NCBI GenBank assembly: GCA_007751255.1
Contig: CP036296.1
Location: 3,906,001 to 3,970,000 of the forward strand
Direction of reading: 5' to 3'
DNA length: 64,000 bases
Source: Engelhardtia mirabilis
Lineage (GTDB): Bacteria; Planctomycetota; UBA1135; GCA-002686595
Shown: in pieces, positions 56,964-64,000 of the stretch
How positions within the stretch are numbered: position 1 is the first letter of the stretch
How the letters are laid out: the number at the start of each line of letters is the position of its first letter
Made by a program: the position numbers and the translations under genes
Notes under the pieces: model-generated
What the model saw: the letters and a program-made list of their open reading frames with translations, nothing else
Database searches by the model: none
What the model was told of the DNA's origin: nothing

Positions 56964-58027
56964 GCCGGCCACACTCCCCGTGCGCGACCGATCCTAGGCC
57001 CGGCGGCCCGCGCGCGGCCGCCGTGGCCACGCTCGTCGCCTGCCTGGGCGCCTGCGCGGCGCCCCCGGACGTCGTCGAGCCGGGCGCGTTCCACGAGACG
57101 GTCGCCCTGACCTACGACAACGACGTCTTCACGCGCAGCGACGACAACTACACCAACGGCGTGGCCCTGACCTGGATCCGTGGGCCGGTGGCGCGCGAGC
57201 GCGACGGGAGCCTGGCCGACCGGTTCGCGCGCCTCTGGCGCGGCGCCCCGTTCCTCGGCGACGACCGCGAGGAGCTCTACGTGGCGATGGGCCTGGGCCA
57301 CGAGATCTTCACCCCCGACGACATCACCTTGGCCGATCCCCCGCGGGACGACCAGCCCTACGCGGGGGTGCTGTTCGTGGACCTGGCCCTGGCCCGCCTG
57401 CGTCCGGACCGCAGCGACAACTGGCAACTGCGGCTGGGACTGGTGGGGCCATCCTCCGGGGCCGAGTGGGTGCAGACCAAGGTCCACGAGACGATTGGCG
57501 TGGACGTGCCGGAGGGCTGGGACACCCAGCTCCCCGACGAGCCGATCATCAACCTCGACTACACCCGCGCGACGGAGTGGCTGACGAGCGGCGACATGTC
57601 GGATGCCGGCGCCCGCGTCGTCCCGGTCTTCGGCGCCGGAGCCGGGACCTACTTCACCGGGGTCACCGCCGGACTCTACGGGGAAGCCGGCTGGAACCTG
57701 CCCGACCCGGTGGGCGCCTTCTCCCTGCGCCAAGGGGTCGGCCCGCAGTTCCTGGGCGACATCGGCGCCAGCGGTCAGCCGTCGGTCAGCTTCTTCGCCG
57801 GCCTCGGCGGCTACGCCACGGCGCACTACCTGCCCCTGGACGGAACGGTCTTCAGTTCGAGCAGGTCGGTGGACACCGAGCCCCTCGTCGGCTTCGGCTC
57901 GTTCGGCGCGACCGTGCGCTACGGGTCCCTCTCGGTGACCTTCGTCGGTTCGGTGGCGACGGACCAGTTCGCGACCCAGCGCAGCGCCACCAAGTTCGGC
58001 TCGTTGACCGTGGCCTACCGCTTCTGA
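56960..58027 (+). CDS. LpxR-family (DUF2219) outer-membrane lipid A deacylase-like protein
   Basis: The family removes the 3'-acyloxyacyl group of lipid A in the outer membrane. The hallmark VALTYDNDVFTRSDDNYTNG is near the N terminus, and DDQPYAGVLFVDL and VQTKVHETIGVDVPEGW follow, with beta-barrel-type alternation and a terminal Phe. The start is unclear: no ATG is present. A CTG at 56960 overlapping the recQ stop (CTGA) gives a basic N-region and an AVATLVACLGAC lipobox, while a GTG at 57023 leaves a shorter leader. About 355 residues from the CTG. Occurrence with a Kdo transferase in the same window agrees with an LPS-type membrane. Confidence 0.75.
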   Translation: MSRPHSPCATDPRPGGPRAAAVATLVACLGACAAPPDVVEPGAFHETVALTYDNDVFTRSDDNYTNGVALTWIRGPVARERDGSLADRFARLWRGAPFLGDDREELYVAMGLGHEIFTPDDITLADPPRDDQPYAGVLFVDLALARLRPDRSDNWQLRLGLVGPSSGAEWVQTKVHETIGVDVPEGWDTQLPDEPIINLDYTRATEWLTSGDMSDAGARVVPVFGAGAGTYFTGVTAGLYGEAGWNLPDPVGAFSLRQGVGPQFLGDIGASGQPSVSFFAGLGGYATAHYLPLDGTVFSSSRSVDTEPLVGFGSFGATVRYGSLSVTFVGSVATDQFATQRSATKFGSLTVAYRF

Positions 58028-58164: not shown

Positions 58165-60948
58165 ATGCAGGACATCACCACCGCCCTCCTCTCCGAACGC
58201 GACTGGCTCGCGTCCTTCGCCCAGCGGCTCGTGCGGGACGCCGCCGCCGCCGACGACCTGGTCCAGGAGACCTGGTTGAAGGCGCTGCAGCACCCCCCCG
58301 CTCGCCTCGACCGGCCGCGCGGTTGGCTCGCGACCGTGATGCGTTCGGTGCTGGTGCAGACCGGCCGCGCGGACTCCCGCCGCGAGCGGCGTGAGCGGCT
58401 GAGCGCGGCCGGCGAGGCGCTCGACGACGTGACGGTGGCCCTGCAGCGCTCGGAGCTCGAGCAGCAGGTGGCCCAGGCCGTGGCCGAGCTGCCCCAGGAC
58501 CAGCGCGAGGCGATCGTGCTGCGCTTCCGCGAGGGCTGGTCCAGCGTGCGTATCGCCCGCGAGCTCGAGCTGACCGACAGCGCCGTGCGCTCGCGCGTGC
58601 ACCGCGGGCTCGAGCAGGTGCGCGCCAAGCTGCGTCGGAGTCACCCGGAGGACGAGCGCGCCTGGGCTCTGGCGCTGATCCCCCTCGCGCGCAGGGCCAT
58701 GGGAACGCGAAGCCTGTTGGCGGGTCCGACCCTGGGTGTCGCCCTCGTCGCCGCCGCGGTGCTGGCATTCGTCGCCCTCTCCGCGCCGAGGGGACTGGAA
58801 CCGGCCAGCGGCGGCGGCGCGCGGCCCGATCGGCTGGCCCAAGCCGGCGCTCCGGGGCTGGCATCCGTGCAAGCCGACTCGCCCACCTCACGCACGCAAT
58901 GGCTCGCTGGCCCGGGCCGGATGGAAGTCCGTGGTCGCCTGGTCGACGACGGCGGCCAGCCCCTGGCCGAGCGCAGCCTGACGCTCTACTGCGGTCGCGA
59001 GAGCCGACACGAGCTCGTCACCGACGCGGCCGGGATCTTTGCAGTGGTCCTGGAGCGACCCGACGGCGCGGCCTCGGTGGACCTCGATCTGCAGATCACC
59101 GATCCACTCCTGGAGCCTTGGATCGAGCGCTGGACGCGCGACGTCGCCGAGTGCATCGATCTCGGTTCCCTGCGCCGGCCTCGCCGCGGCGCGGTGCGCT
59201 TCACCTTCACCAACGGGGCCGGCCATCGGCCCGCGCGGGTCCAGGGCGCCCTGGTCCAGCCGGGACGCACGAACGTCAGCAGCCCCCTGGCCCGACCGGC
59301 CAGCCCGCCCATCGAGTGGGAACTCGAGGCGGGCCAGGGCCTGTGCCGCGGCGTCGAAGCCGGCAGCTACGTGCTCTGGGTCCGCGGGGACGCCGATCGT
59401 TGGACTTCGCGCGAGCTGGAGGTCGAGCTCGATCGCATCACCGACCTGGGCCCCATCGTCGGCGAAGCGGCGGCCAGCGCAGAGCTGTTGACCGTCGCCC
59501 TGATCGCGCCGGACGGCGCGCCCTTCACCCGTTCTGCGGTGCGCTTCACCGCCGTCGCCGAGGGATGGTTCGCCAGCCAGACGCCGCGTCCCGACGCCCA
59601 GGGGCAGGTGCGTCTGCTGGTCGACGGACCCGGCCCGATCGACCTGGTGGCGAGCTCCTACTCCCGCGAGTTCGCCAGCCTGCGCGTCGAGGTCCGGCCC
59701 GAGACGCCGCGACCGATTCGGATGCAGCTCCAGCCCTGGAGGGCCCTCGAGGTCGAGGTGCGCGATGCGATCGGGCGCCCCGTGCGAGACGCGATGGTGA
59801 GCCTGCGTCCGGCGACGTCGGAGCGCACGGACTGGCTCGCCGGCGGCCGCTACATCGCCCAGGAGAGCTACCAGGAGGCCTGGCCCACATCCATCCCCGG
59901 CACCTATGCCGCCTCGCCCCTGGCCCGCCCCTTCAGCGTCGCGGTGGCCACGCGCCAGGATCCGAGTTCGAGCTTCTGGAGCACCGTCGCCGTCCAAGCG
60001 GTCGACGACCCGAGCCAACTGGGCAGCAGGCTGGTCTTCGAGCTGCCCTTCGAGGTGGCTGCGGACTTCGAGATCGAGGACGGACCAGGGGACGAGCCGG
60101 CGGCTGCGAGGCAACCCGCCGAGTTGGGCGGGCGGGTCTTACGCCCCGATGGGAGCGCGTCCGTCGACGTGACCGTGGCCCTGGTCGACGCAGGCGCCGT
60201 GGTCGACGCCGTCAACACCGACGTCGAGGGCCGCTTCTGGCTCGCGGGCGACGTCGGCCCCGGCGCGAGCCTGGTCACCCTGCCCCACCGCGTCCGACCG
60301 GGCTTCGAGCGCACCGCGGAGGTCGCCATCACCGCCGAGGACCCGCGCTTTCGCCACGCCTTGCCCCCCGCGGATTCCCGCGGGAGCGTCGAACTGATGT
60401 TGCCCGCGCGGGCCAGGCTGACCGGCCGACTGCTCGGGGATCCTTCGCAGGTCGAGCGCTGGTCCCTGCGCATCGACTCGAGCCTCGAGGGTGGCGTCCT
60501 GGCCGACCTCGACGTGCGTGCGGAGCTCGAGCTCCCGCTGGAGCAGGACGGACACTTCGAGGCGGCCTTCGTGCCCCTGGACGAGACCCGGTTGCTGCTG
60601 CGCCGCGCTGCGGAGGACGAGGCGGACGAGCCCCTCGAGCTCGAGCTGCAGTCCGGCGAGTACCGCGACCTCGCCCTCGATCTGAACCTCACCGATCGGA
60701 GCCTGCGGTCGGAGGCGGGCCTCGACGAGAACGAGCGCCTGGCCTGGGTCGCGCTGTCCGCGAACGGTCTGCGACGCAGCGGCGAGGTTCGCGGGCCACT
60801 CGCCCCGGGAGCCACGGTGCTCCTGCGCGACCTGCCCGGCCGGCGCATGGTGGTCGCGCGCAAGCGACAGCTCGGGGAGCACGGTTGGTCGTTCCTGAGC
60901 ACGACCGAGGTCGAGCTCGACGATCAGGAGCTGGTGCAGGTCCCCTGA
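58165..60948 (+). CDS. ECF sigma factor fused to a membrane segment and extracytoplasmic carboxypeptidase-regulatory-like domains
   Basis: The protein has 927 residues. Residues about 1-155 are an ECF sigma factor: region 2 (DAAAADDLVQETWLKAL, then PRGWLATVMR) and region 4 (LPQDQREAIVLRFREGWSSV, helix-turn-helix ARELELTDSAVRSRVHRGLEQ). A single membrane helix follows at about 185-207 (GPTLGVALVAAAVLAFVAL). The rest, about 700 residues, should be outside and has CarboxypepD-regulatory-like beta modules near 251 (MEVRGRLVDDGGQPLAERSL...TDAAGIFAV) and near 655 (ELGGRVLRPDGSASVDVTVAL...NTDVEGRFWLAG). It would need release of the sigma domain (proteolysis, for example) or act at the membrane. No separate anti-sigma gene is next to it. 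Confidence 0.85.
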   Translation: MQDITTALLSERDWLASFAQRLVRDAAAADDLVQETWLKALQHPPARLDRPRGWLATVMRSVLVQTGRADSRRERRERLSAAGEALDDVTVALQRSELEQQVAQAVAELPQDQREAIVLRFREGWSSVRIARELELTDSAVRSRVHRGLEQVRAKLRRSHPEDERAWALALIPLARRAMGTRSLLAGPTLGVALVAAAVLAFVALSAPRGLEPASGGGARPDRLAQAGAPGLASVQADSPTSRTQWLAGPGRMEVRGRLVDDGGQPLAERSLTLYCGRESRHELVTDAAGIFAVVLERPDGAASVDLDLQITDPLLEPWIERWTRDVAECIDLGSLRRPRRGAVRFTFTNGAGHRPARVQGALVQPGRTNVSSPLARPASPPIEWELEAGQGLCRGVEAGSYVLWVRGDADRWTSRELEVELDRITDLGPIVGEAAASAELLTVALIAPDGAPFTRSAVRFTAVAEGWFASQTPRPDAQGQVRLLVDGPGPIDLVASSYSREFASLRVEVRPETPRPIRMQLQPWRALEVEVRDAIGRPVRDAMVSLRPATSERTDWLAGGRYIAQESYQEAWPTSIPGTYAASPLARPFSVAVATRQDPSSSFWSTVAVQAVDDPSQLGSRLVFELPFEVAADFEIEDGPGDEPAAARQPAELGGRVLRPDGSASVDVTVALVDAGAVVDAVNTDVEGRFWLAGDVGPGASLVTLPHRVRPGFERTAEVAITAEDPRFRHALPPADSRGSVELMLPARARLTGRLLGDPSQVERWSLRIDSSLEGGVLADLDVRAELELPLEQDGHFEAAFVPLDETRLLLRRAAEDEADEPLELELQSGEYRDLALDLNLTDRSLRSEAGLDENERLAWVALSANGLRRSGEVRGPLAPGATVLLRDLPGRRMVVARKRQLGEHGWSFLSTTEVELDDQELVQVP

Positions 60949-62278: not shown

Positions 62279-64000
62279 TCAGCCGCTGAAGGCGGCCTCC
62301 TCGCTCAGGTCGATCACGGTGGTCTCGCCAGCCTGCAGCTCGAAGCTGCCCAGCGGAATCACCGGACGTCCCGACGTTCGAACCCCGATTCGAACCAAGC
62401 CAGCGCGACGGACCTCGCCGGTCAACTCGAAGGCGTTGCTCCCTTCGACGGCCGCCCCTTCGGTGGCGAGTGGAACCCAGATCGAGGCCCTGTCCTCGTC
62501 CGACCAGGTCCACAGGACCTCGGTGTTGGGTGCCGTGAGCATGATGGGTTCTGCTCCCCTCCCCTCCGCGATGTGTGGCAGGCGCACCGTGACCCTCGGC
62601 CATTCTCGCACCCGCAGCACGACCTCCTCCGAGGCGTCATCGAGCACGACCGTGGTCCGGTCGGGGAACCAGCGCTTGCTCGGGGCCAGGACCACCGGGC
62701 CTGCGGGGAGCGTCACCTTGCCGTCCTCTTGACTGGGCCAGACATCGATCAAGGTCCCGTCGTCGATGGCGACCACGCTCGCAGGGGCATCGCTCGGAGC
62801 GACCCTCACACTCGCCGCTTCCAAAAGCGACGCTCCGGATTCGTCGTCGACGTACCGCACGCGAGTCGTCACCAAGCCATCGACGGACCAGGTCAAGCGG
62901 ACATCCTCACCCGGCCCCAGGTCGACCGTCTCGCCGACTCCCAGACCCGCGAGGCGCAGGTCCCAAGATCCAGGAACCACTCGCAACGGCCCCCATTCGA
63001 GTAATCCGGGCTCGACCCCTCGCAGCCCCTTGCGACCTCGGGGCGTCTCGGCACGGAACGAACTTGAGAACTCACGTCGTGGGCTCAGCGTGTATCGCTC
63101 CAACGACGCCATCTGATCCTCCGGGCAGAGGATCGATCCGGAAACCGTAGCCAAGCCCTCGTCGTCCCCCAGTCGATCGAGGTCCAGCCTCCACCCCTCA
63201 TCGGCATCGACCTCCACGGAACCACTGAACGCCGAGCCAGAGAGAACACCCAAGCGATTCACCCGCTCTCCCACGTTGACGAACCCCCTGCCCGCCATTG
63301 CCGGATAGCGAGCCATGCCCTGCTCGAAGTCCGCCGCGTCGATGGCGTACTCGAAGCCCGGGACGCCCAGCGGCACGCCGTCCCAGCGCTCCGGGTCGCC
63401 CGTGTAGAGCTCGACATGGGCGAGCGGAAACGCCAGCACGTCCACATGGGTACCAGAAGGCGGGGGCACGCGGGCAGGCGCATACCCATCAGCGAGGACG
63501 TAGCTGCGCAACTGCGCGTCGGCGACGGAGACCTCGAGGCAGCCATCAACAGCCTCAGGCCCGTCAGCCTGTTGGGCGAGGTGCTCGAGCACCTTCTGGG
63601 TCGTCGGCGGCGGGTAGGTCTCGCGCCACCAGGCCTCAACCAACTTGAACTCCCGGATCGGGCGACCGTCCTGCTGATCGAACACTCGGACCGCAATCCG
63701 CTCCTCGTCATCGCAGAAGGCCAGGTCCAGATTCCCGGCATCATCGACACTCCGTGACGTTGGCGACCACAACCGCAAGCCCCGGCGGAGATAGAGAGGC
63801 CCTAGATCCTCCGCGACCAACGAATCGGGTAGCGCCACGTCGCCCTCGCCCGTCGCTTGGATCGAGACATCAATGACAGCGCCTCCAACAGCCGACCGCA
63901 GGCCGAGGGAATACTCGCCGCTCGGCGCGGGCCCGCCGCAGATGCTCAGATGAAGCTGAGGACCCGCTGGCGACTCGACGACACCTCGCCTCGCTGGGAA
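62279..64000 (-). CDS. Large exported-type beta-domain protein, 5' end beyond the window
   Basis: The frame stays open to the right edge of the window (573 residues seen), so the gene starts outside and the GTG at 63838 is not its true start. The visible part has repeated beta-sandwich-like stretches (GEYSLGLRSAVGGAVIDVS, then DVRLTWSVDGLVTTRVRYVDDES, then RAGLVRIGVRTSGRPVIPLG) reminiscent of the extracytoplasmic part of the sigma-factor fusion at 58165-60948, but no domain is firmly recognised. It ends in DLSEEAAFSG. If the unseen part holds a sigma-factor and a membrane segment, it would be a second fusion of that kind; this is a prediction. Confidence 0.7.
   Translation of the reverse strand, partial: FPARRGVVESPAGPQLHLSICGGPAPSGEYSLGLRSAVGGAVIDVSIQATGEGDVALPDSLVAEDLGPLYLRRGLRLWSPTSRSVDDAGNLDLAFCDDEERIAVRVFDQQDGRPIREFKLVEAWWRETYPPPTTQKVLEHLAQQADGPEAVDGCLEVSVADAQLRSYVLADGYAPARVPPPSGTHVDVLAFPLAHVELYTGDPERWDGVPLGVPGFEYAIDAADFEQGMARYPAMAGRGFVNVGERVNRLGVLSGSAFSGSVEVDADEGWRLDLDRLGDDEGLATVSGSILCPEDQMASLERYTLSPRREFSSSFRAETPRGRKGLRGVEPGLLEWGPLRVVPGSWDLRLAGLGVGETVDLGPGEDVRLTWSVDGLVTTRVRYVDDESGASLLEAASVRVAPSDAPASVVAIDDGTLIDVWPSQEDGKVTLPAGPVVLAPSKRWFPDRTTVVLDDASEEVVLRVREWPRVTVRLPHIAEGRGAEPIMLTAPNTEVLWTWSDEDRASIWVPLATEGAAVEGSNAFELTGEVRRAGLVRIGVRTSGRPVIPLGSFELQAGETTVIDLSEEAAFSG

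Follow-up and report, generated by a model that had tools for sequence, protein, structure and literature searches.

The gene at 58165-60948 on the forward strand of the window, by which we mean the whole 64,000-nucleotide stretch of DNA analysed here, raises the question of whether a sigma factor, a membrane helix and a long outer region can belong to one polypeptide, and if so, how such a protein would be silenced and set to work. According to an earlier note, the gene encodes a membrane sigma factor that carries a long outer region on the same chain, and this observation is confirmed by an intact frame, Pfam matches to sigma regions 2 and 4, a transmembrane segment and a beta-rich structural model.

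Architecture of the 927-residue protein

The frame runs as a single unit from ATG to stop and encodes 927 residues, whose plan comprises ECF regions 2 and 4, a helix with a conserved tryptophan (Trp helix), one transmembrane segment, a flexible stalk and about 670 predicted beta-rich residues:

58165..60948, forward strand: complete gene for the 927-residue one-chain transmembrane ECF sigma factor (open frame and family architecture)
58195..58368, forward strand: sigma region 2, residues 11-68 (Pfam PF04542, Sigma70_r2, E 7.8e-11)
58462..58617, forward strand: sigma region 4, residues 100-151 (Pfam PF08281, Sigma70_r4_2, E 5.9e-14)
58654..58698, forward strand: Trp helix of the linker, residues 164-178, with Trp167 (conservation of the Trp column; predicted helix)
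58729..58785, forward strand: transmembrane segment, residues 189-207 (hydropathy 2.39; predicted helix 192-206)
58786..58914, forward strand: Ala/Pro/Ser-rich disordered stalk, residues 208-250 (pLDDT <50 at 206-247; family composition after the transmembrane segment)
58915..59187, forward strand: first beta-sandwich module, residues 251-341, transthyretin/CnaB-like fold
59476..59751, forward strand: beta module, residues 438-529
60124..60336, forward strand: CarboxypepD_reg module, residues 654-724 (Pfam PF13620, E 6e-12)

According to Pfam, regions 2 and 4 are present and separated by a short linker, and region 3 is absent. Structure prediction, which the earlier note had suggested as a check, returned the ECF helices and a membrane helix, with the rest of the chain mostly beta and in large part of low confidence. 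In detail, the AlphaFold2 model of residues 1-225, built from 130 sequences, shows a confident ECF domain (the helices of region 2 with pLDDT >90) followed by helix 164-178 and membrane helix 192-206. ECF sigma factors held the top ranking when this modelled N-terminal part was compared by Foldseek, and the closest solved structure by sequence is M. tuberculosis SigL, matched by residues 15-157. Region 4 alone superposes on ECF structures to about 1-2 Å, and whole-chain TM-scores are low because the relative placement of the two sigma domains differs. Residues 189-207 form the sole 19-residue window of the protein that reaches 1.6 or more on the Kyte-Doolittle scale. Third-position GC is 0.96 in the sigma part, 0.86 in the linker and transmembrane segment, and 0.86 and 0.91 in two stretches of the ectodomain; being high throughout the frame, it gives no sign of a frameshift join.

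Fused sigma factors in the source genome and in Poly30

The genome that carries the gene (6.95 Mb, two contigs) contains 39 places similar to the 927-residue protein. Among the 28 that were read, 27 have the fused plan, namely the gene itself and 26 paralogs (612-1095 residues, main hydrophobic segment starting at 189-236); the remaining 11 matches fall within open frames 219-373 codons long, and the number of fused genes is at least 27. The recurrence of the plan in 26 paralogs excludes chance and misassembly as its origin. Five of the 27 proteins have a further, weaker hydrophobic window, in one case before the main one, so that the designation as single-pass is uncertain for those five. The genome has 91 region-2 matches, 25 of them within fused genes, and overall the fused type accounts for 27 of approximately 93 sigma-like genes. 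The first 2.0 Mb of contig C1 hold 17 of the 27 fused genes, with 7.8 expected by length, and the gene studied here lies outside this part.

In the planctomycete Poly30 (CP036434.1, 7.7 Mb), which we take to be the cultured Saltatorellus ferox, 84 matches were found, and 65 of the 83 read were fused, by the rule of at least 400 residues and a hydropathy window of 1.6 starting at 150-290. This count is a lower bound, because 150 of 159 candidates were scored and 83 of the 84 matches read; no transmembrane segment above the cut-off was seen in five of the long frames in Poly30 or in two long loci of the species-genome collection described below. Among 54 members searched with Pfam, region 4 was found in 54, region 2 in 53 and CarboxypepD_reg in 52.

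Several arrangements of individual genes were also seen. Fused sigma genes stand in tandem at two loci (four at L046 1903-13223, reverse strand, and two at L037 2953-9063, forward strand), and a 181-residue stand-alone ECF-like frame (L036 2171-2716, forward strand) lies directly upstream of the fused gene L036 2945-6088. The ectodomains of two fused Poly30 sigmas, L220 1017-3110 and L224 (both forward strand), share 95% identity over 465 residues, which marks a recent duplication, and a Poly30 match with an in-frame TGA (6018206-6018700, reverse strand, L240) is possibly a decayed copy.

Distribution in other genomes

Within the family and order set, all 61 genomes, the source genome included, gave a match at E 0.001. 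The best E was below 1e-16 in 45 genomes and weaker than 1e-14 in 16; the latter is the level of ordinary ECF sigma factors, and the fused type is therefore not universal among the relatives. Nor does a low E prove fusion, because the best match of one genome (G029) is a 167-residue stand-alone protein. The places read in relatives numbered 17, and 16 of them were fused. A deeper search of eight relatives at E 1e-9 yielded 14-52 matches each (to be read as "at least" in four of them, where 111 of a larger number of candidates were scored), and most of the matches listed lay in frames of more than 600 codons. Across the phylum, 149 of 294 genomes had a match at E 1e-9, with best E values below 1e-16 in 64 and between 3.6e-14 and 1e-9 in the rest. 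In these multi-genome searches scoring was limited to 14 or 3 candidates for each genome.

From a species-genome collection, 63 of 75 loci were read (all except L138-L140, L146-L153 and L155), and 45 of these were fused, one being itself a Poly30 gene. The record titles of the fused loci name Planctomycetota or Myxococcota (including Minicystis rosea and Paraliomyxa miuraensis) or give no phylum, and the eight gammaproteobacterial and acidobacterial loci read all encode proteins that stand alone and are 160-212 residues long. The expansion is not general, since of the five matches that Minicystis rosea gave at E 1e-6 a single one lies in a long frame.

A sigma-domain tree of 93 fused and 20 stand-alone rows (with 20 of the 67 Poly30 fused rows, and leaving out two Poly30 and one Paenibacillus stand-alone rows) required at least five changes between the two labels, compared to 18.7 in shuffles. 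Four of these changes are forced by well-supported branches, and the bootstrap is not settled. As judged from this tree, the fused type appears clustered and does not form one clean clade.

A conserved linker before the membrane

For the analysis of conservation we aligned 140 members, comprising 27 from the source genome, 67 from Poly30 and 46 from other loci. The Poly30 share consists of the 65 fused proteins, one protein of 374 residues and one incomplete at the edge of its stretch, and L116 and L134 were excluded as Poly30 duplicates. Beyond what the earlier note had described, the genome proves to contain at least 27 such genes, and a conserved Trp helix lies between region 4 and the membrane. 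In the Trp column, 110 of the 132 sequences with a letter at this position have tryptophan (3.18 bits), a conservation similar to that of many sigma-core positions; the pattern GGDRxxWxxALxPLA recurs between region 4 and the transmembrane segment, and 125 of 140 members have a tryptophan somewhere in the linker. Of the Myxococcota members inspected, several keep the pattern and one lacks it.

The H-x3-C-x2-C zinc-finger motif between region 4 and the membrane was found in none of the 140 members, and the 927-residue protein has no cysteine before residue 276. Net charge is higher before the transmembrane segment than after it in 121 of 140 members, the bias being absent in 19; this is as expected for a cytoplasmic sigma part and is the one observation from which the putative topology is derived. 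In sigma region 2, D31 is kept in 134 and Q34 in 137 of the 140 aligned N-terminal parts, and some positions of the recognition helix vary, e.g., 138, 139, 143 and 146.

Outer modules

The outer part comprises about 720 residues, the initial 40 or so predicted to be disordered. Family-wide, the 40 residues after the transmembrane segment consist to 55% of P, A, S, T and G, compared to 40% in the ectodomains. The full-length AlphaFold2 model (54 sequences) has a mean pLDDT of 69, with 278 residues below 50, and is mostly beta beyond the stalk. In this model, residues 251-341 resemble domains of the CnaB/transthyretin type and residues 438-529 the N-terminal extension domain of SusC, and structure comparison of the predicted modules points to pilin- and adhesin-like folds. 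The naming of modules is confined to 251-341, 438-529 and 654-724, the remaining ectodomain being weakly modelled; no carbohydrate-binding module (CBM) was among the Pfam matches of the protein, much of whose ectodomain is at low model confidence.

Outer parts differ strongly among members, although the largest group linked by blastp includes 100 of 136 ectodomains. A phmmer search of the ectodomain against the 140 members returned itself only, and the sole blastp partner was L143 (158 residues, 28% identity, E 1e-5). As the ectodomain clearly matches just one other member, the ligand cannot be read from relatives.

Genomic neighborhood, anti-sigma genes and proteases

That no separate anti-sigma gene adjoins the sigma gene, as the earlier note had stated, was borne out by Pfam searches of the neighboring frames in the window. 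Upstream, an LpxR-like outer-membrane gene (57086-58027, forward strand, PF09982, E 9e-77) ends 137 bases before the sigma gene, with which it is possibly co-transcribed, and the two frames scanned downstream had no Pfam match. The product of the neighboring gene at 62279-64000 (reverse strand; in full L053 10280-12208) has a long outer region behind a single hydrophobic segment at its N terminus, with no Pfam match in its in-window part and no sigma domain seen at its start.

Searching the source genome for three anti-sigma families identified eight domains, comprising five zf-HC2, one RskA_C and two FecR. The five zf-HC2 domains are each separated by 512-779 bases from a non-fused sigma gene, and the RskA_C and the two FecR domains start 180, 558 and 998 bases from one. 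In contrast, the distance from an anti-sigma domain to a fused gene is 13.7 kb for the nearest and at least 46 kb for the others. Separate anti-sigma genes therefore exist in this genome and are paired with ordinary sigma factors.

The fused genes have no recurring neighbor: crude gene calling gave 143 frames, 28 of which are ECF-like, and these contained three similar pairs only. Among 43 immediate neighbors, some of which are probably not genes, Pfam found MFS_1 in three, Reg_prop in two and the others once each among the 25 of 52 families listed. The crude caller missed the LpxR gene and two fused genes and extended the gene at 58165-60948 too far upstream. With four window neighbors as queries, synteny searches gave no match in 15 loci of relatives.

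A promoter of the autoregulatory ECF type was not enriched in the 200 bases upstream of 27 genes of the source genome and 67 of Poly30. The GGAAC pattern occurred before none of the 27 own genes (0.4 expected) and two of the 67 Poly30 genes (1.2 expected), and four looser patterns were likewise not enriched; some hexamers were enriched in the same regions. M50 (site-2) proteases are encoded by four frames in the source genome, and they weigh little in favor of proteolytic release because all 14 control genomes have them as well.

Discussion

One-chain transmembrane sigma factors are already known, and what stands out here is the size of the repertoire, together with the fact that no inhibitor domain of the zinc-finger or FecR type is recognisable. 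IutY of Pseudomonas putida (ECF243) likewise combines a cytosolic ECF domain, one transmembrane segment and a periplasmic part in one polypeptide and is released by Prc and RseP; its periplasmic part, however, is a FecR-type anti-sigma domain that works with an outer-membrane receptor, whereas the outer part of the 927-residue protein is a module array several times longer (PMC5411451). The latter has no Pfam match to FecR up to E 0.1, and the two FecR matches of the genome lie elsewhere. SCO4117/ECF52 of Streptomyces also carries an ECF domain, a transmembrane segment and an outer part in one chain, with a Pro-rich stretch, an outer carbohydrate-binding domain and proposed proteolytic release (PMC5826349). 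It has a zinc-finger anti-sigma domain before the membrane and is said to be exclusive to Actinobacteria (PMC5826349); the zinc-finger motif occurs in none of our 140 members, and the outer modules described here are of the CarboxypepD_reg/CnaB type.

Expanded multidomain ECF sigma factors are reported for the planctomycete family Gemmataceae, where the extension consists of WD40 repeats (PMC8567305, PMC11032199); the likeness lies in the expansion of multidomain ECFs, and WD40 had no Pfam match in the 927-residue protein and was absent among the 25 of 39 families listed for 54 members. More generally, a 2022 review counts at least 26 ECF groups whose regulatory extension stands in for a separate anti-sigma factor, as may be the case here, and names ECF48, ECF52, ECF53 and IutY as fused cases of the proteolysis type (PMC8999054). 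The earlier note had considered this type of ectodomain poorly described, and in agreement with this, searches of an open literature library listed no paper on ECF proteins with a transmembrane segment and CarboxypepD_reg, and no match for the pair "sigma factor" and "CarboxypepD_reg". As the main ECF classification is outside that scope, it is quite possible that a numbered ECF group already covers this architecture.

The structural side of the finding is correct, and its mechanistic side is speculative. Starting from what the computation provides directly (architecture, recurrence, conserved linker, no known anti-sigma neighbor, site-2 protease genes), we infer how inhibition, cleavage, ligand and regulon of the fused sigmas may fit together. 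By analogy with IutY, whose release by Prc and RseP is the precedent (PMC5411451), we give somewhat more credence than doubt to a self-contained transmembrane signalling protein whose sigma domain stays at the membrane until site-1 and then site-2 proteolysis frees it. The N-terminal ECF domain would reside in the cytoplasm, silenced by its anchoring to the membrane, and the Trp helix just before the membrane would probably add to this silencing. One helix would span the inner membrane, and outside, a flexible stalk would bear beta-sandwich modules that bind or feel an extracytoplasmic cue, which in the reading of the earlier note may be an outside polymer. Once the cue has made the stalk accessible to site-1 cleavage, a site-2 protease of the RseP type would cut within the membrane, and the freed sigma domain would bring RNA polymerase to its own promoters.

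ToxR and CadC are regulators that act while membrane-bound. The main alternative, which we regard as unlikely, is that the sigma domain works in a similar manner, an outer change passing through the helix so that polymerase is loaded without cleavage. A single transmembrane segment and a conserved juxtamembrane linker would also serve such signal transmission, and no cleavage site is known; however, the predicted disordered stalk suits cleavage better than rigid transmission, and the two one-chain sigma factors studied are cut (IutY, PMC5411451) or proposed to be cut (SCO4117, PMC5826349). It is also rather improbable that a separate, unlinked or unrecognised anti-sigma factor controls the sigma part, with anchor and outer modules serving placement, adhesion or assembly only. 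The coverage of three anti-sigma families by our search and the pilin- and adhesin-like folds would leave room for this, but the anti-sigma genes that were found adjoin non-fused sigmas, and no neighbor family recurs next to the fused genes. We see very little chance that the sigma domain is a DNA-binding or structural remnant that has lost sigma function: the missing autoregulatory promoter in the own and Poly30 upstream regions would fit, but the Pfam scores are good, with regions 2 and 4 in 53 and 54 of 54 members, and the core positions of the 140-member alignment are nearly fixed. Finally, the joining of two genes by frameshift or misassembly, named by the earlier note as one possible refutation, is ruled out for practical purposes by the recurrence of the plan in many independent genes and assemblies (source genome, Poly30, relatives and species collection) and by the even codon-position GC.

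Returning to the membrane-held sigma factor freed by proteolysis, we tentatively suggest that in some planctomycetes and scattered Myxococcota, a receptor-like family of one-piece transmembrane sigma factors may be a main route of envelope signalling. A conserved core and a likewise conserved, minimal Trp-helix inhibitor replacing the anti-sigma domain would be combined with fast-changing outer modules and varied DNA-contact residues, each gene forming a complete receptor-to-regulon pathway, with at least 27 of them here and 65 in Poly30. Experimental tests are feasible, because Poly30 is a complete chromosome record and the member-bearing Minicystis rosea and Paraliomyxa miuraensis are named strains. 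If the model holds, each gene would encode a complete pathway from the outside to the promoter in one polypeptide, and a single genome could contain tens of them; how a sigma factor stays silent without a recognisable anti-sigma domain would be directly testable, and the role of the conserved Trp helix and the sensing by these little-studied bacteria would become testable as well.
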